In this document: positions 3,001-59,600 of the stretch, one piece after another
Position numbering within the stretch: position 1 is the first letter of the stretch
How the letters are laid out: each line of letters begins with the position of its first letter
Assembly (NCBI RefSeq): GCF_000186865.1
Contig: NW_008705562.1
Coordinates: forward strand, 2,706,821 to 2,770,820
DNA: 64,000 nt
Origin: Aureococcus anophagefferens
Taxonomy: Eukaryota; Sar; Pelagophyceae; Pelagomonadales; Pelagomonadaceae
Reading direction: 5' to 3'
Notes under the pieces: model-generated
Told to the model about the DNA's origin: nothing
Seen by the model: the letters and a program-made list of their open reading frames with translations, nothing else
The model's database searches: none
Translations under genes and position numbers: made by a program

Positions 3001-4112
3001 GACGACGCGCGCCGCATCGCCCGCGCGACGCGCGTCTCCCCGGGCACCGCGTCGGCGTCCTCCTCGGACGGCCGCGCGATGTCCTCCTCGGCCCGCGCGG
3101 CCGCGGCGCGGTGGGGCAGGGAGCTCTCGAAGGGGCCCTCGTCGACGTAGGAGTCGAGCGTCATGACCGGCGCCGGCGGCTCGCAGACGTCGTTCTCGAG
3201 CGGGTGGCTCTCGTGCGTTTGTTCCGCCGCCGGCGGCGGCGCGTCTTCCTCGGGGGGCGGGGCGGACTGCGCGGGCGCCTCGTCGTCGCCCGCCGTCGTC
3301 GTCGGCGCGGCGGCCGCCGTCTCCTCCGCCGGCTCGCCGTCCGGCGCGAGCGCGAGCTCCGCGACGTCGAGAGGCGTCGGCGCCGGCGGCGGCGGCGCCT
3401 CGTCCTCGGGCGGGGCGCTTTCGGCGAGCCCGTCGTCCTCGTCGCCGGCGATCATCGCGAGAGGCGGCGGCGGCGCCTCCTCGGGAATAGCGGCCTCGTC
3501 CTCCGTCGGCGCCGCCTCCGGCGGGGCGGCCTCGGCGGGCGTCTCGTCGCCGGCGGTCTCGGCCTCCGCGGAACGTTCGCGCGGCCCCTCGTCGTCCGCC
3601 GCGGCCTTGCGCGGCGGCGGCGGCGGCGGCTCCGCGGCGGAGAGCTGGTCCGTCGAGCTCCGGGGCGCGTCGGACCTGGGCGACGGCGGCGCCTGCCGCC
3701 CGACCTCCCGGAGGCGGCGCTCGCCGATGGACGGCGGCGAGTCGGCGAAGCGGCCGTAGCGCCACTTCGCGTGCGCGTCGAGCTGGACGGCGTCGGCGAA
3801 GTCGCGCGCGGGCGCCGCCCGCCCGGGCATCTCGGGCCCGCTGCCGCACCGCGGCGTGACGCGCGTCGGCGTCGCGGGCGGGGACAGGCGCTCGAGCTTG
3901 TCGCCCTCGAGGGTCGAGCCGCTAATCACGGCGTCCCAGAGGTCGGCGGGCGGCGGCTTGGCCTCGAACTCGACGGGCTCCCGCGAGCTCCCCCGGCTCC
4001 GGATCTGGCGGTCCCGCTCCTTGGAGACGTCGGAACAGCAGAAGCAGTCGAGGCCGCTCAGAGGCTGCTGCCGCGGCTGCGGGGGCAGCCGCTCGTCGGG
4101 ATAGACGCTCAT
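1..4112 (-). CDS. Giant hendecad coiled-coil protein (3' end outside window)
   Basis: I do not recognise this gene. The minus-strand frame opens at the ATG at 4112 (MSVYPDERLPPQPRQQPLSG) and stays open to the window edge, about 1370 codons, so the C-terminus is missing. Residues 1-480 are low-complexity, rich in Pro, Ala and acidic residues, with an early Cys cluster (CFCCSD). From about residue 480 onward the chain is almost continuous helix. Its central part is built from 11-residue units that nearly always end in His, for example STEAALVARH, then EEELSTKVAEH, then ADLLSKQAETH. Three units make a 33-residue (99 bp) super-repeat. No stop or intron signal is visible. A structural or scaffold role is likely by inference only. 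Other frames of this region are open merely because of base composition; only this frame gives a heptad/hendecad protein. It is divergent from the dehydrogenase gene, with a 187 bp shared upstream region. Confidence 0.75.
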   Translation of the reverse strand, partial: MSVYPDERLPPQPRQQPLSGLDCFCCSDVSKERDRQIRSRGSSREPVEFEAKPPPADLWDAVISGSTLEGDKLERLSPPATPTRVTPRCGSGPEMPGRAAPARDFADAVQLDAHAKWRYGRFADSPPSIGERRLREVGRQAPPSPRSDAPRSSTDQLSAAEPPPPPPRKAAADDEGPRERSAEAETAGDETPAEAAPPEAAPTEDEAAIPEEAPPPPLAMIAGDEDDGLAESAPPEDEAPPPPAPTPLDVAELALAPDGEPAEETAAAAPTTTAGDDEAPAQSAPPPEEDAPPPAAEQTHESHPLENDVCEPPAPVMTLDSYVDEGPFESSLPHRAAAARAEEDIARPSEEDADAVPGETRVARAMRRASSFFFGAPEAEPRPAGPLEHRWRRAVEAGEEKEAARRASVRVSADVAANLVESRLRELEERLGAPPKAIRGMIDTGVAIADLVAALEARERELRAVGGRDPDLAKVERWLAALEEDRKRAGSVESDDAGPREAAAPDGAAAAAPMATMAGDDDDDDLAEREAPDDDEGFAAAHGEALEARDLAHAKALASTREAHEASLRETRAAALEAEAAHAEALRSLAASHGEELRRRASSHEDALAEVRRAAATPAAALAERHAGELATREEAHAASLAAAADDHAAAVAALREGHAAALSEADARASALREGHDGARAALVADHEAAVARHEAALSRETEAHASTRASLAARHEADVEALAARHAAAVSEARDELSGKHAAAVAESEARREAERATTVAEHTRALSEQTETHSTAVVALVSKHEAVVAATVAEHEAALAALAETHASSEAALAARHEATLSTTVAEHEARLSSSETAWIAEREAEVSAKAAAHAEAVAALTETHATTEAALVAAHEAARSTTAADHEAALSALKTTHATSEAALIAEHEGALSKKVAEHQGALSKQAETHSSTEAALVARHEEELSTKVAEHADLLSKQAETHSSTEAALVARHEEELSTKVAEHADALSALSEAHATGEAALIARHEADLLTKVAEHQGELSEQASSHSTTEAALIARHEAELSTKLAEHTEVLSKQAETHSSAEAALLAEHEAALSTKVAAHDETLAALTDAHATNTAALLAEHEAALAIKAAEHGALLSERAEAHSSAEAALVAEHEAALEKTAADHEALLARERAAHVAERDAVVDYHTEDRSTRRASHLAELAEVKAALAADREAAVAGALDDGENALARERARHVAALDAALLDQESRLLEEHDARTASATAAALEDQAARLREAHDAEVAAQREARDAEVAARREAHAAALDDAGATAAAAERRRSADAATAHAARHEALAKNAAARHREELASRVDAHAAELARTEAELIAFHEAEVEAAAEGHAAAL
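1158..1355. repeat. 99-bp tandem repeat within the coiled-coil gene
   Basis: Two near-identical 99 bp copies (from 1158 and 1257) lie inside a longer run of diverged copies. Each encodes 33 residues, three 11-residue units. The near identity of these two copies suggests recent unequal exchange, while the flanking copies are older. Confidence 0.8.
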
Positions 4113-11796: not shown

Positions 11797-14700
11797 ATGA
11801 AGGCGGCGTCGGATGGCGGGGGCACGCCCGGCGCCCCGAACCAGCAGGGTGATAGCATCATCCTGGAGGTGGGTTTTCGGCTGCCGCGCGCCGCGGCCCG
11901 ATCCCGCGCCCCCCGCAGGAGGAGATCGACCCGAACTACGTGCCGAGCCAGGAGGAGGTCATGGAGTACGCCAAGTGGCTCGGCATGGACCTCGAGAAGG
12001 ACGTGGACATGTTCTGGATCGCGCGCGAGGGCCTCAAGGCGCGGCGCCGGCGCGCGCGCGACGCGACGGCGCGACCGACCCGAGACACGTAGGCGCCGCT
12101 GCCCGAGAACTGGAAGCCCTGCAAGACGACGGACACGGACGAGATCTACTACTTCAACTTCGCGAGCGGCGAGAGCACGTGGGACCACCCCTGCGACGAG
12201 TACTACCGGAACCTCTACGAGGAGCAGCGGAAGAAGAAGGCGTCGGGCGAGGAGGAGAAGAAGGACGCGAAGAAGAAGCAGGCCAAGGAGGACGTCAAGG
12301 TGCTGCTGGGCAAGAACGGCAAGGACGAGAAGAAGAAGAAGGCGTCGTCGTCGTCGAAGATGCCCAAGGCCGAGGGCCCCGGCGCGCTCGGCGCGCTCGG
12401 CGGCGGCGGCGGCGGCGGCAAGGGCTCCATCTTCGACCGCAAGCCCCTGCCGGGCATCAAGGGCATGGGCGGCGGCGGCGGCGGCGCGTCCCTCGGGGGC
12501 CTGAGCCCCCTCAAGTCGAGCGCGCCGGGCCCCGCGCGCGACCGCGACGGCGACCGCGGCGGCCGCGACCGCGACTCGTCGACGGAGTCGCTGCGCCGCG
12601 ACGACCGGTCGCGGTCGCCGTCGAGCTCGCGGAGCAAGGTCGAGAGCCTGCGCAAGGTCGAGGCCGACCGGGCGCCCGCGGCGAGCCTCCGGCCCGCGTC
12701 CGCGGAGTCCGAGGACTCCGCGCCCGCCGTCCGCAAGAAGTCGTCGCGCGCCGCGGGGCGCCTCGCGACGGCGCTGAGCGCGAGCGACAGCGACATGGAG
12801 GGGTCCCTGACCCACCGCGGCCCGAGCCGCAAGGACGACGACGCGGGCCGCTCCGACGACGACGGGCCGCGCGACCGGCGGAACCTCGGGAGCCGCGGGT
12901 CCGAGTCGTCCGGCGGCGGCGGCTACGCGGCGAAGCGGCGCCAGTCCCTGGGCTCGGCGAGCGACGCGCACCGGTCCAGCGACCGCGAGGACGGCGCCCT
13001 CAAGGAGCGCGTGCGCGAGCTCGAGCGCGAGCGCGACAAGCTCCGGGGCAAGGTCGAGGCCGCCGAGTTCGCCGCGCGCGACGCCGAGGCCGCGGTCGAC
13101 GACGCGCGGGCCCAGGCGAAGAAGGCGGAGCGCGACGCCGGCGGCGAGCGGGACCGCGCGGACCGCCTCGAGCGCGACCTCGAGGAGGCGAAGCGCGGCG
13201 GCGGCCGCGAGTCCGACGAGGCCAAGCGCGCGCGGACCGGGGCAGCACAAGAGAGCGACATTCCCAACGTCAAAGGCTCCGATCTCGGTCGTTTTCCACT
13301 CGTTTCGGCTGATTCTTGGACGAGCGATCATCCCTCGGAACAGTCTCGACGCGTGGATGCTTTTTCCGGAACGCGCGCGCGCGGAACACTCACGTTGAAG
13401 CGAACTTGAATCACTCTTTTCCTGCCCAGGCGCGGACGCGCGCCGAGGACGCGGCGAACATGGCGCGGCTCCGCGCCGAGGAGGCCGAGGAGAAGGAGAA
13501 GCGCGCCGGCGAGCGCCTGGCCAAGGCCGAGGACGACGTGCGCAAGCAGCGGGACCGCGCCAACGCCGCGGAGGACCGCGCGCGCGACGCCGACGGCCGC
13601 GCCAAGTCGTCCGACGACGACGCGCGGCGGTTCAAGGACCGCGCGGCCGCGGCCGAGGAGGGCGCGAAGACGGCGCGGGACCGCGCCGTCGCCGCCGAGG
13701 ACGACGCCCACGCCGCCCGGGCCGAGGCCCAGGCCGCCAAGGACGACGCGGCGGCCGCGCGGCGCGACGCCGCCGCGCGGCCCGCGGCCGCGGCCGCGGC
13801 GCCCGACACCGCGCAGCTCGACGAGCTGCGCGAGAAGATCGAGATCCTCGAGGCGGAGAAGCGCACGCTCCAGGACGACGTCGCCGCGGAGCGCGCGAAA
13901 CGCGAGGCCGCCGAGGCCGCGGCGGCGCCCAAGGAGCCGCCGCGCCTCGTGCTCTACTCGAGCGACACGCCGGACAAGGAGGACTTTCTGGGCATGGTCA
14001 AGACCCACAAGGTCGGCTACGACTTCGACACGTCGACCGTCGAGGACATCCTGGAGAAGGTGGACTGGGAGCGGAAGACGCACGCGCCCGGGGGCTTCGA
14101 ATCCATCTGCTTCGCGTGCCACGGCCCGCCCGGCACGGCCGAGGACGCGGCGAGCGCGCCCTTCAAGTGGGCCCTGGCGAAGCACATCGTCATCACGGAC
14201 CCCGCGGCCTTCGACGAGGAGGACAACGGCGTCCGCCGCGTCATGTTCGGCCTCGCGGCCGCGGTGAAAAAGGGCGGCCGCGTGGATTTGCTCGCGTGCG
14301 CGCTCCTCAAGAAGGAGGCGGGCCGCAAGCTCTTCGCGGAGATCGAGGACGACACGAAGACGAACTTCGCCGCGTCCGACAACCTGAGCGGGAACCCGAC
14401 GAACCCGGACGCGGACTGGGTCATGGAGTCGGACAACATCGACATCAAGGACTTTTACTTCTACGCGGACAAGATGGCCGCGTTCGACGGGACCTTCGCG
14501 GCCACGGAAGCGGCGGCGACGCAGTCGACCGTCGCGAAGACGGAGCTCGAGCTCAAGGACGCCCAGGCGGAACTGGTCAAGGTCAAGGGCGAGGCCGCGG
14601 CCGCGCGCGACGCCGGGACCAAGGCCGCGCGCGCCAAGGAGGCCGCGGAGGCGGACCGGGACCGCGAGGCGCGGCGCGCCGCCGCCGCCGAGGAGGGCCG

Positions 14701-48983: not shown

Positions 48984-51125
48984 ATGGTCGTTGTCGGCGC
49001 GCGCGCCGCGGCGGCCCTGGGCGCCGCCGCCGTCGTGGTGGGCGGCCTGCCCATCGCGCTGCCGGCGCAGCTCCGGGCGCTGGGCGGCAGCGTCGCGCGC
49101 GTCGACCGGCGCCTCCAGGCCGTGGAGTCCATGGACATCTTGGGCACGATCCAGCAGGAGAGCGTGGCGCCGAACCCGGAGAACGTGCGGGCGACGTGCT
49201 ACATGGGCCTCATCGAGGAGGTGACGACGAAGTGCAACCTCCTCGACGACGACGGCGAGGAGGTGCCGCCCGGCGTCTGGTACTACGAGAAGACCGAGGG
49301 CTGGAACATGAGCCCGCGCGGCGAGTCGGACGTGCTCTGCCTCCAGTGCTGCAGCCAGCTCTACGACGAGCCCAACGAGCGCATCCACGAGGAGTGGAAC
49401 TTCGACTGCGCCGTCGACGCGACGGTCCGCACGAAGTTCGACACGGGCTACTACGGCTACGAGTTCCGGTCTGTGTGGAAATCAAATCTTCAACCCGGAT
49501 TCAATGTGAGCGTAATTGAACGGTTTGGACCAGACTCTCTGGCCGTGCTTCGAGAACTGAACGAGAGCAATCGATTCGTCCAAAAATCAGCCGAATCGAC
49601 TTCGATTTGACCGAGCTAGAGAGTTCTGAAGTTCAGTGGTTGATTTCCACACAGGTTCCGGTTCGCGCGGAACCGCGACGAGAAGGACGACAAGATGGTG
49701 CGCTGCGCCATGGGCCGCATCGGCTGCGAGTACGAGGGCATCTTCGGCGAGTACGAGATGGACGGCCGGCCTCTATCGTGCACGTCGAAGCAGGCCGACG
49801 GCGACTACGGGAGCTGCTCCGCGGACAACAGCTCGTGCGTCTGCGAGATCCCCGGCTCCCAGCGCGGCGGCACGGGGCCCCACCCGGACACGAACGCGCG
49901 CAACGACTACTTGGACGGCGTGCGGAGCCGCGTCGACGAGCAGAGCTGCCGCTACCGGTCCGCGCGCGAGCGCGAGGACGGCAGGAGCTGGTACCTCCAG
50001 GGCTACGAGCTCACGGTCTACGTCGAGGAGCTCACGGAGAACGACGGCTCCTACTGGCGGTCCGTGACGGGCTGCCACGTCAAGACCTACGAGACGGAGA
50101 CTTTGCGCGCCGGCGACAAGTTCTTCCAGCGCATCGTCATGAAGGGCAACAAGGACCCGCGGCCCTACAACTGGCTCGCGGGCGCGCACGGGCTGCCCTT
50201 CGTCGTCTGCGCCGTGCTGCTGGCCTGCGTCGTCGGCGCGCTCCTCGTGCGCTGCGCGCGGGACACGCCCTGCCCGACCTGCGGCTCGAAGCTCATCTTC
50301 ATGCCCACGCAGTGCTTCTATTGCTCGCTCTACGGCGCGCCCATGCCCGACCCCGTGCTCCTCGCGCGCATCCGCGCGCGCGGCAAGTTCGTCTCGGGCC
50401 AGGGCTTCGTCGCGCACACCTTCCGCAAGCGGCCGGGCTCGGAGCAGACGCGCGCGGGCTGCGCGCGCCTCTACGCGGGCCGCGCGTGCAAGGCGACGGG
50501 CACGATCGCGGGCCGCCACGTGCTCGCGCTCCTCAAGTGCCTGGGCAAGGGCACGCTGCACTGCGGCGACGCGCTGCTCCACTTCTTCTATAGGTGCGTG
50601 CTCCGGCGGCGGCGCGGGCCGGGCCCCGTGTGCCTCCGGACCTTCGTCGCCGACGAGTCCGAGTACGTCGAGCGCGACCCGCCCGTGCCGACGAAGATCT
50701 ACGTCGCGGACCCGGCGCTCCGGTCGCAGAACGCCTTCGAGGCGCTCACGCGGCCCATGCCGCCCAAGGAGCGCGAGCTCGTCGCCGCGGAGCAGGACTA
50801 CGTCCGCAAGTTCCGCGAGGAGAAGCGCGCGAAGCGCCTCGAGTCGAAGCGCCGCCGCGAGACCTACTACGCGGCCGCGAGCGCCGCGCTCCCGGCCAAG
50901 GTCGCGCCCGCGAACGCGCTCGAGGCCGGCGTCGCCGCGGGCGCCGAGCGGGCCCTCGCGGACGCGGGCTCCGTCGCCTCCAAGGGCTCGAAGAGCTCGA
51001 AAAAGCGCGGCGGCTCGCCGCGGCCCCAGCTCGAGGACGGCGACGCCGCGTCCGTCGCGTCGTCGCTCTCCGCGCGGTCCGAGAAGACACCCGTGCTGCC
51101 CATCGAGCAGGAGCCGACGGGGTAA
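48984..51125 (+). CDS. Two-pass membrane protein split by an introner
   Basis: Not recognised. Exons 48984-49468 and 49655-51125 give 651 residues. TM1 lies at about 5-27 (AAAALGAAAVVVGGLPIALP). A Cys-rich, presumably lumenal or extracellular region follows (CYMGLIEEVTTKC; CLQCCSQLYDEP; CAMGRIGCEY; SCSADNSSCVCEI), then TM2 near 343-363 (FVVCAVLLACVVGALLV). After it comes a CPTCG...CFYC pair that could bind zinc, and a basic coiled tail. The intron 49469-49654 is GT-AG and is formed by an inserted element. Splicing leaves a two-codon duplication, reading EFRFRFARN. The upstream half alone would stop inside the element. Confidence 0.75.
49471..49654 (+). mobile_element. Introner element, family B, with perfect TIRs
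   Basis: A 184 bp element with perfect 15 bp terminal inverted repeats, CTGTGTGGAAATCAA (49471-49485) and its reverse complement (49640-49654). It is flanked by the 8 bp target-site duplication GTTCCGGT (49463-49470 and 49655-49662). The GT donor is the last two bases of the left target copy; the AG acceptor is the last two bases of the right inverted repeat. The internal sequence is about 45-50% GC and unrelated to the family A elements. It is too short to encode a transposase, so it is non-autonomous. Confidence 0.94.
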
Positions 51126-53342: not shown

Positions 53343-54809
53343 ATGAGCGGCCCGCCCAACGCCAAGTACGAGCCGGCCATCGGTCACCTCACGTGGCGCG
53401 CGCTGACGCCGGCCGACGCGAAGAAATGGCCCACGGCGGGCATCCTCTCGGAACTCGATCCGTGGGCTGCCCGCGCCCCGCTGAACCACCGCCGCGGACC
53501 CGACCCGCGCGCAGGTCCACAACGCTCGCCATCCCCGGCATGACCAAGGACAAGAAGAAGGCCGACCTCCACGCGAGCGTCAAGCTCAAGGTCTGCGAGA
53601 GGCCGACGCCCTACCTCCTCGTCGAGAGCGCGCGCCGGGGCGGCGAACGCGGAGACGCGCCGAAGCCATCGAACGATCGTAGGCAACGGCGTGCCCGGCT
53701 ACATGCCGAAGACGGAGAGCGAGGCCAAGGCCGGCGACTGGGGCGTCACGGCCGAGGGCAAGTGGTACAAGGTGCGGTCCAAGAACGGGCGCCTCGACAA
53801 GAATCCGAACGTCATCGGCGAGCAGAACTACAAGTTCGTGCTGCCGCTGGAGCCCAAGCCCTACGACCCGCCGGCGGGCGAGCGGCCCATGCCCACGCCC
53901 ATGGGCCCCATGGCCGTCGCGGCGAACGGCGTGCCCATCTACAACGCCTTCGCCACCGACGGCGAGGACAAGAGAGCGAAATTCCAAACTTCAAAGCCTC
54001 ATATCTCGGCCGTTTTCCACTCGTTTTGGCTGATTTTTGGACGAGCGATCATCTCTTGGAACGGTCTCGAAGCGTGGATACTTTTCCCGGGACGCGCGCG
54101 CGCGGAACACTCACGTTGAAGAGACGTTGAATCTCTCTTGTCCTGCCCAGGCCACCGACGGCGAGGACGGCATCGACCTCGAGGCGTTCGACAACTGCTG
54201 CGGCCACCCGGACGGCGGGAGCCGATAGCGCGTCCGCCCGCGCCGTTCATCGCGGCGTCCTGTACTCATCCGTCCCCCCCCGCGCGCAGCCACTACCACC
54301 AGTTCCCGCGCTGCGTCCAGGGCGCGTCCGCGCTCGGCCTGCAGGCCGCGGACGTCGTCGCGCCGTCGCTCTACGGCGCGAACGCGGAGCTCGCCGGCGC
54401 GCTGCGCGACGCCATCGCCGCGGGCACGCCGTCGGCGGCCTGCGGCGTCGCCTTCGACGGCTTCCCCATCCACGGGCCCCTCATCGAGAAGGACGGCGAG
54501 GTCGTCTTCGCCAAGAGCAGCTACACCGGCGCCGCGGGCCACCTCGGCCACCCCACGTTCGTCGCGGGGAGCGGCGACCTCGACGTCTGCAACGGCCTCA
54601 TGACGCCGGCGGGCTACCGCTACGTCCTGACCTGCGAGCTCAACGGCGACGAGCTCGTGCCCACCTACCCCTACACGATCCCGGCCTACCGCGGCAAGCC
54701 CGAGCTCCTCAACTACCCCGAGCGCATGCGCCAGCCCAACGGCGTCAAGGACTTCATCAAGCAGAACGAGGAGGGCAAGGTCACGAAGGACGCGTGCGCG
54801 CTCATGTAG
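53343..54809 (+). CDS. YHYH-domain protein, five exons
   Basis: Exons 53343-53461, 53515-53627, 53683-53951, 54151-54227 and 54290-54809 join into 365 residues. The YHYH domain is recognised by NGVPIYNAFATDGEDGIDLE, FDNCCGHPDGGSRYHYHQFP, VAFDGFPIHGP and PAGYRYVLTC. An upstream related segment reads LLVESNGVPGYMP. YHYH proteins are usually extracytoplasmic and of unknown biochemistry; the Asp/Cys/His set suggests metal binding. Introns: 53462-53514 (GT-AG), 53628-53682 (GC-AG), 53952-54150 (GC-AG, introner) and 54228-54289 (GC-AG). The last one splits the first Tyr codon of the YHYH motif, and splicing with the GC donor recreates it exactly. No signal peptide is evident. Confidence 0.85.
53960..54150 (+). 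mobile_element. Introner element, family A, in the YHYH gene
   Basis: About 191 bp, roughly 85% identical by eye to the element at 13238-13429. Terminal inverted repeats share GGACAAGAGAG exactly. The right end ends CCTGCCCAG and provides the acceptor; the donor GC comes from the left target copy (GCCACCGA, 53952-53959). The direct repeat around the element is longer than 8 bp: 18 bp (53952-53969 and 54151-54168). Removing 53952-54150 gives NAFATDGEDGIDLE in frame. Confidence 0.88.
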
Positions 54810-56602: not shown

Positions 56603-59600
56603 CTACGCGTCGAACGCGTCCCGGGGCTTGGGCAGCGCGTCGGGCTCGTGGATGGGCAGGTGGCCGAAGGGCAGCTCGGGCGGCGCGGCGGCCGCGGCGG
56701 CGATCGCGAGGCCCGGGATGGCCACGGCGCCGCCCGGCGGCAGCCCGAAGTCGACGACGGTGTCCAGGCCCCGGGGCGCGGCGCCGAAGGTCGGCGGCGG
56801 GCCCCGGGCCGGCGGCGGCGGCAGCTTGAGGGGCGCGGCGTGCCACGTCACGGGCGGCGGCGGCGCGGCGGCCGGCGNNNNNNNNNNNNNNNNNNNNNNN
56901 NNNNNNNNNNNNNNNNNNNNNNNNNNNNNNNNNNNNNNNNNNNNNNNNNNNNNNNNNNNNNNNNNNNNNNNNNNNNNNNNNNNNNNNNNNNNNNNNNNNN
57001 NNNNNNNNNNNNNNNNNNNNNNNNNNNNNNNNNNNNNNNNNNNNNNNNNNNNNNNNNNNNNNNNNNNNNNNNNNNNNNNNNNNNNNNNNNNNNNNNNNNN
57101 NNNNNNNNNNNNNNNNNNNNNNNNNNNNNNNNNNNNNNNNNNNNNNNNNNNNNNNNNNNNNNNNNNNNNNNNNNNNNNNNNNNNNNNNNNNNNNNNNNNN
57201 NNNNNNNNNNNNNNNNNNNNNNNNNNNNNNNNNNNNNNNNNNNNNNNNNNNNNNNNNNNNNNNNNNNNNNNNNNNNNNNNNNNNNNNNNNNNNNNNNNAC
57301 GAGGGGCTGGGGCGTCGGGGGCAGCCCGAAGAAGGCGTCGGGCACCCCCGGCTCGCTCGCGGTCCGCGGCGGCGGCGGCGCCTTCGCGGGCGCCGCCGCG
57401 GGCCGCCGCGGCGGCTCCGGCGCCGTCGCCGCGCGCTCGCGCGGCGGCGCCGGGGGCGGCAGCACCTCGGGCTTCGGCGGCGACGGCGCGGGGCCGAAGA
57501 GGTCCGCGGCGCAGCGCAGCGCGGGCTCCGGCGCCGCGGGGTCCGGGTCGGGCTCCGGCTCGCCAAAGAGCCCCGCGGCGGACCGCGGCGCGTCCGGCGG
57601 CGCGACGGGCGGCGCGCGCGGCGTCGCGGGGAGCCCCGCGAGGGCGCAGAGGTCCGCCGTCGACGGCGCCTCCTCCGCGAGCGCGCGGAGGTCCGCCGCC
57701 GACGGCGCGTCGTCCCCGTCGTCCGCCGGCGCGGCCTCCGGGAGCTCCGCGCGCGCCGCGGCCGGCTCCGGCGTCGGTTCGGGGACCGCCACGGACGACA
57801 CGGGCGCGGCGGGCTCCGACGCGAGGCCCTTGAGGCGCTCGCCCTCGAGCCGCGCGGCCTCGAGCTTGGACCGGAGCGCGTCCATCTCGTCCTCCTGCTC
57901 CACGAGCTGGTCGTGGATCTTCGAGTTGCGCCGCTTGAAGGCGTCGAGGTCGATGGGCGCCGCCGGCGGCGTCGACGCGGACCGCGGCCGCCGCGGCGTG
58001 TCGCGCTTCGGCGCGTCCGCGGGCGTCTCGGCGACGCGCGTCGGCGACGGCTCCGAGTCGTCGAGCGCCGCCGCGGCCTCGGCCTCGAGCCGCGCGACGA
58101 GCGCGTCGGCCTCCGCGGCCGCGCGCGCCTCCGCCGCCGTCTCCGCCGCCGCGGCCTCGGCCGCCGCGGCCTGCTCCGCCGCGCGCGCCTCCGCGTCGGC
58201 GCGCGCGCGCGCCTCGGCCTCGAGGCGCGCGGCCTCGGCGGCGTTGGCCTCGGCCTCGGCCTCGAGCGCCGCGACGCGCGCCCGCAGCCGCGCGACCTCG
58301 GCGGCCTCGGCGTCCGCGCGCGCGCGCGCCTCCGCCGCGTCCGCCTCGGCCTTTTCGCGCGCGGCCGCCGCGGCCGAGGCCTCGGCCTCGGACGCCTCGC
58401 GCGCCTCGAGCGCCGCCGCGGCGTCCGCCTCGGCCCGTTCGCGCGCCGCGGCCTCCGCCGCGGCGTCCGCCTCGGCCCGTTCGCGCGCCGCGGCCTCCGC
58501 CGACGCTTCGGCTTCGGCCCGCTCGCGCGCCGCGGCCTCCGCCGAGGCTTCGGCTTCGGCCTTTTCGCGCGCCGCGGCTTCCGCCTCGGCGACGGCCCGC
58601 GCCTCGGCCGCCTCGCTTGCCGCCGCGGCTTCCGCCTCGGCCCTCGCTTCCGCCTCGGCTTCGGCCTTGGCCGCGGCCTCGGCCTCGGCCGCCTCGCGCG
58701 CGAGGTCCTCGGCCGCGGCCTCGAGCACGGCGTCGGCGACGTCGCCCGCCGCGCGCGCGAGGCCCGCCGCGCGCGCCTCGTCGAGGCCCTCGTCGAGCGC
58801 CGCGGCGACGAGGGCCTCGACGACGGCGTCGCCGCAGTCCTCGACGGTCCGCTCCGTGCCGAGGTCCTCGAGCGCGGTCTCGACGACCGTCGCGCAGATG
58901 TCGTCCGCGAGGCACGCGTAGCACGCCGCCTCCTCCGCCTCGATGTCGTCGGTGGCGTCGCTCAGAGCGCTTTTCACGATCTCATTTGCCAGGCTTTCGT
59001 AGCAGGCTTCGGCGAGAGCTTCGTGCTCGGCTTCGATGTCGTCCGTCGCGCTCGACAGGGCGCTTTGCACAATTTCATCGGCGACACTTTCGTAGCAGGC
59101 TTCGGCGAGAGCTTCGTGCTCGGCTTCGATGTCGTCCGTCGCGCTCGACAGGGCGCTTTGCACAATTTCATCGGCGACACTTTCGTAGCACGCGTCCGCG
59201 AGCGCCTCGTGCTCGGCTTCGAGGTCGTCCGTCGCGCTCGACAGGGCGCTTTGCACGATTTCATCCGCGAGGCTTTCGTAGCACGCGTCCGCGAGCGCCT
59301 CGTGCTCGGCTTCGAGGTCGTCCGTCGCGCTCGTCAGAGCGCTTCGCACGATTTCATCGGCGACACCTTCGTAGCAGGTCTCCGCCAGAGCCTCGCGCTC
59401 GGTTTCCAGATCCTCCGTCGCGTCGTCGAGGGCGCTCCGGACGATGTCCTCGGCGACGACGTCGTAGAGGACCCGCGCCGCGCCGTCGGCGGCGCCGCCC
59501 GCGCCCTGGGCCTCCTCCTCGAGCGCGGCCTCGGCGAGGAGGTCGTCGAGGAGGTCGTCGCCGTCGTCGTCGTCGGGCGACCGCGGCCGCGAGTCCTCCT

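Follow-up and report, generated by a model that had tools for sequence, protein, structure and literature searches.

The element at 49463-49662 of the window (the whole stretch of Aureococcus anophagefferens DNA that was analysed, 64,000 nucleotides long) is, judged from its sequence, a genuine introner and a textbook example, for which an earlier note appears to have misassigned the donor by six bases. The copy very probably uses the donor at bases 1-2 of the duplicated target, which would define a 192-nt intron at 49463-49654 on the plus strand, the form best supported by the family data, and would restore the protein without a scar. It offers a clear example of a transposon-made intron, in which the donor that survives would leave no trace, contrary to the lesson that had been proposed.

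The MITE-like element itself occupies 49471-49654 (184 bp, no strand assigned). Its left terminal inverted repeat (TIR), CTGTGTGGAAATCAA, covers 15 bp at 49471-49485 on the plus strand, and the right TIR, a perfect reverse complement of the left, lies at 49640-49654 on the minus strand, the plus-strand reading ending in ...TTCCACACAG; 154 bases separate the two. The element is flanked by an 8-bp target-site duplication (TSD), GTTCCGGT, of which the left copy stands at 49463-49470 and the right copy, which forms the first bases of the downstream exon, at 49655-49662 (both plus strand). The AG of the 3' splice site (49653-49654, plus strand) comes from the right TIR and is terminal in the element. 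The perfect inverted repeats, the 8-bp duplication and the acceptor taken from the repeat end had all been described in the earlier note, and each was recovered here; its broader proposal, that a TIR/TSD DNA transposon of the introner kind gave rise to a spliceable intron in a coding gene, is likewise supported, with the AG supplied by the element and the donor by the duplicated target. The target word GTTCCGGT holds GT twice. The first, at TSD bases 1-2 (49463-49464, plus strand), is the best-supported 5' splice site, GT or GC being found there on the coding strand in 85/85 sampled copies of the family, and the second, at positions 7-8 (49469-49470, plus strand), is the donor chosen by the earlier note, which would add six bases.

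Several observations set this locus apart within the window. The window was scanned for inverted ends that match exactly over 6 bp or more, lie 60-400 bp apart and are bordered by identical 8-bp repeats; the locus at 49463-49662 had inverted ends of 15 bp, and all other hits had ends of 6-8 bp. The TIR was matched twice in the window with at most three mismatches, against 0.12 matches expected, and none of 100 shuffles reached two. In addition, G+C content is 49% at 49431-49660 versus 71% for the window as a whole. The window copy is probably recent, because its ends and its duplication are intact. The two element ends are predicted to pair as a stem in the RNA (z -3.36), a pairing that may place the splice sites close to each other, and TTGAT inside the right TIR is a possible branch point.

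The host gene, delimited by reading frame and homologs, comprises exon 1 from the ATG (48984-49462) and exon 2 (49655-51125), both on the plus strand. Removal of 49463-49654 yields a 649-aa frame in which EFRFARN is restored exactly, removal of 49469-49654 yields 651 aa with FR repeated, and retention of the intron leads to a stop after 208 residues. The last of these outcomes bears on the reading that the element is an ordinary transposon insertion, unspliced and disruptive to the gene. The full MITE anatomy is present, as such an insertion would have it, but retention would end translation after 208 residues, and the strand-matched donor rule that holds over 85 copies of the family (see below) is unexpected without splicing; on these two grounds the reading was rejected, and we consider it hardly credible. 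As regards the spliced forms, the frame alone cannot pick the donor, because both candidates, at positions 1-2 and 7-8, keep it.

The host protein is of unknown function, and eight relatives of it were found among the 7990 best word-sharing candidates that were scored. The closest, P0001 (source JGI), is 99% identical and 649 aa long, which is the clean-join length; another is 66% identical and the other six, which include a protein of Pelagophyceae sp. CCMP2097, are 38-43% identical. A search of viral contigs for relatives of the host protein found none. The FR-FR duplication is absent from all eight homologs, each of which carries the motif YGYEFRFARN with single substitutions and no insertion, and the alignment shows no added residue along Y-G-[YF]-E-F-[RQ]-F-[AST]-R. 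To judge from these alignments, the homologs show the ancestral protein and are by themselves silent on the donor used by the filled allele. P0001 looks, at the protein level, like the empty or cleanly spliced form, and may represent an empty allele or a transcript. The earlier note had also proposed a comparison with an orthologous empty site lacking the element plus 8 bp; such a site cannot separate the donors, as it would be the starting point for either.

The element belongs to a large family. Exact matches to the 15-bp TIR number 394 + 380 = 774 in the 49-Mb genome and the reversed control pattern gave 0; a genome search for the repeat had been recommended in the earlier note. Other copies are 85-94% identical over the aligned part (from 40 scored of 1699 candidates, which together span 85-100%). 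Copies were drawn from the first 100 exact-TIR places and 40 scored matches, a sample that favours elements with at least one near-exact end and that lacks 20 of the regions requested. Among the 96 copies collected, the commonest element length was 203 bp (exactly so in 66), the window copy being shorter at 184 bp, and the two TSD copies matched at 8/8 bases in 73 and at 7/8 in 12. The 11 of 96 with fewer matching bases were left out, which gives a sample of 85 copies, including that of the window, whose TSDs match at 7-8 of 8 bases. Relative to the gene, 49 of the 85 lie one way and 35 the other, with one unassigned. Both element ends read ...CCACACAG outward and, because they read the same, either end can serve as acceptor; the occurrence of copies in both orientations implies that, with its symmetrical end, the element can become an intron whichever way it lies. 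Several features of the TIR/TSD introner class were found in this family, namely many near-identical copies, TIRs and a TSD of fixed length, together with, at the sequence level, one splice site that is carried by the element and another that derives from the TSD. The exact TIR 15-mer also occurs in 43 stretches of a viral collection and in at least 118 of a prokaryote collection, matches that were presumed to be chance occurrences of a 15-mer. A search for the hAT dimerisation domain (PF05699) gave zero matches in the genome and zero in the control genomes too.

The family also indicates which donor is constrained. Coding strand and frame were called from codon usage in the 240 bases on each side, and the calls were repeated with the target bases excluded. 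On the coding strand, TSD positions 1-2 read GC in 46 copies and GT in 39, that is 85/85, and the counts were the same when the TSD was excluded from the score. In comparison, GT or GC was found in 10-25 of 85 copies at fourteen shifted control positions, where strand agreement was at most 23/34. In 55 copies the TSD permits a donor on one strand only, and in 55/55 that strand is the coding one. Coding phase on both sides fits exact removal of the element plus one target copy in 82/85, the other 3/85 fitting no single coding phase. The best-frame coding score was negative in 9/85 copies, for which the strand calls are weak. These family data point to TSD 1-2 as the constrained donor site, from which splicing is predicted. 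The strand rule, at 85/85, provides sharp evidence that splicing, besides the taste of the transposase, decides which genic insertions persist.

Two further observations concern the composition of these sites. GC donors outnumber GT donors (46 versus 39 of 85), and if every copy is spliced, the proportion of GC-AG introns would be unusually high. Genome-wide, the TIR end is followed by GT at 223 of the 774 ends and by GC at 280, and only 6/774 have neither G at position 1 nor C at position 8, a count that covers this one way of lacking a donor and no other. The rule should not bind intergenic copies, and with 6/774 exceptions either such copies are rare or the transposase itself favours such targets.

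In the earlier note, the donor was the GT at TSD 7-8 (49469), the intron 49469-49654, and the gain of six bases, seen in this gene as FR-FR in EFRFRFARN, a rule for the family. The junction, 49468/49655, would then read GAGTTCCG-GTTCCGGTTC, versus 49462/49655 for the clean form. At this position GT is present, the frame is kept and there is a G at +5. By donor consensus, GTCTGT, in which the GT is followed by CTGTG with its G at +5, is arguably better than GTTCCG. As a family rule, the 7-8 donor was nevertheless rejected and is very unlikely: GT occurs there on the coding strand in just 3/85 copies, the window copy among them, and at 23/774 ends, and it cannot be the donor of the family. If 7-8 were the donor, GT or GC at 1-2 would be needless, yet 22 of these 23 ends carry one (GT in 15, GC in 7). 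In addition, eight of eight homologs lack an insertion at YGYEFRFARN. The GT at 1-2, which the earlier note left unmentioned and which is constrained in 85/85 copies, argues against its choice of donor, and the consequences that it drew are not supported either: the homologs have no duplication, a donor at 1-2 would give exact restoration of EFRFARN and of the ancestral sequence where splicing had been said to fail to restore it, and a protein scar in every member is at odds with the 3/85 copies and 23/774 ends that have GT at 7-8.

For the window copy alone, the GTCTGT context means that the 7-8 GT could be used by itself or additionally, and minor use of it is possible. Use of both GTs of GTTCCGGT would produce a clean and a two-codon (+6) isoform, here and in the few copies with GTNNNNGT, and would be compatible with the clean form as the main product. 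In its favour, of the 23 ends that have GT at 7-8, 15 carry a GT at 1-2 as well, and the six-base spacing is frame-safe; against this, the homologs of the host gene show the short form only, though they are no test of isoforms. We regard such dual use as unlikely. If it were true, an intron would have alternative splicing from the moment of its gain, at 15/774 ends including that of the window copy.

A donor might also lie inside the element end (CTGT/GTGG...), which would add 12 bases, as PMC9860276 describes for one Aureococcus sp. family. The end sequence CTGTGTGG does have a GT four bases in, and 8 + 4 = 12 keeps the frame. An element-borne donor would leave the target free, yet TSD 1-2 is GT or GC in 85/85, a constraint on which this reading was rejected; moreover, the example printed in that paper, at scaffold 3289-3365, is 77 bp long, versus about 203 in the present family (PMC9860276). 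A donor of this type is exceedingly improbable here, and the donor at TSD 1-2 is retained in what follows.

Clean joins at TSD 1-2 were also considered in independent genes. Twelve joined stretches were picked by eye from 20 that were translated; four were aligned to solved structures, and eight, together with the host protein, were compared with Pfam. CTP synthase, aspartyl aminopeptidase and prolyl-tRNA synthetase, all with a GC donor, each align to a solved structure without gaps across the junction, and a YjiA-like GTPase has gaps near the join. In the Pfam comparison, a domain above the cut-off crosses the join in four of the nine proteins (Sel1, DOT1, 2OG-FeII oxygenase and RSN1_7TM); for the remaining five, the join is crossed below the cut-off only in one, and four have no crossing or no match. 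Restoration of the ancestral sequence is what is found in the coding phase of the copies (82/85), in the host-protein homologs (8/8) and in the gapless joins (3/4 genes).

The window contains two more introners, both of a sister family whose ends resemble CTGGGCAG...CTGCCCAG. One spans 13230-13437 (element 13238-13429), with the target word GCGCGGAC on both sides, an AG at its right end and a GC donor at positions 1-2. The other spans 53952-54158 (element 53960-54150), with GCCACCGA on both sides and, again, a GC donor. In this latter copy the inverted repeat on the left seems to have changed (CGGCGAGGACAAGAG), so that the match between the two flanks extends to 17 bases or more instead of 8, and the clean join reads through in frame as ANGVPIYNAFATDGEDGIDLEAFDNCCGHPDG. 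Both target words, GCGCGGAC and GCCACCGA, begin with GC and neither has GT at 7-8. A 17-base core, GGCTGATTTTTGGACGA, has 2110 exact occurrences in the genome, some of them in the sister family with its other ends; in the window it is exact at 49576-49592 and 54028-54044 and has one mismatch at 13307-13323. This interior core (2110) is more widespread than the 15-bp family end (774), and is common to two introner families with different ends. Elsewhere in the window, a run of 421 N at 56878-57298 is either an assembly gap or a withheld stretch, and long reading frames across it are unreliable.

These data are consistent with a mechanism in which an abundant non-autonomous DNA transposon, the introner, would insert into a gene, a transposase presumably acting in trans and cutting the target with an 8-base stagger, which would duplicate GTTCCGGT. 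The same inverted repeat stands at each end and reads ...TTTCCACACAG outward, such that the downstream end would give the AG acceptor in either orientation and might also supply a branch point. The donor would come from the left target copy, whose bases 1-2 are GT here and GT or GC in other copies. With the acceptor directly next to the second target copy, the message stays unchanged only if the donor is at base 1 of the target; excision of 49463-49654 would leave one target copy, with the ancestral frame and EFRFARN intact and no scar. Insertions whose coding strand lacks GT or GC at these bases presumably do not persist, as their absence from the sample suggests.

Huff et al., in Nature in 2016, reportedly described the introners of A. 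anophagefferens as short non-autonomous TIR transposons with a TSD and perfect splicing, and these are said to carry one splice site and to co-opt the other from the duplicated target. In the present family 46/85 copies have GC donors, a point of difference from those introners. The elements of A. anophagefferens always have direct repeats and TIRs that do not vary in length and canonical splicing motifs, according to PMC7789003, and their characteristic length is given as ~210 bp in PMC9481584, which the present family resembles with 203 + 8 = 211. More generally, introners with a TSD-derived donor have been described, most families leaving mRNA length unchanged, in PMC9860276. Those of Symbiodinium are alike in their TIRs, their element-borne 3' splice site and their TSD-derived 5' splice site, but differ in having a TSD of 4 bp in place of 8 (PMC9860276). 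The introners of Amoebophrya, as PMC7789003 presents them, share hairpin-capable inverted repeats and border direct repeats, but the direct repeats are of 3-5 nt and the splice motifs highly non-canonical.

A further comparison is with introner family 4 of Aureococcus sp. (TARA MAG), which is of the same genus and has an 8-bp TSD; in that family both splice sites belong to the element and 12 bp are gained, the addition to the protein being shown by an ortholog, whereas the present family would take its donor from TSD 1-2 and add nothing (PMC9860276). A scarring introner with both splice sites of its own should leave its target unconstrained, and in the present family TSD 1-2 is, at the level of sequence, constrained in 85/85 copies. 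Introner scars are themselves already in print with this +12 bp Aureococcus family (PMC9860276), and the element of the window, from what its sequence and its family indicate, is of the scarless introner kind that is in print as well.
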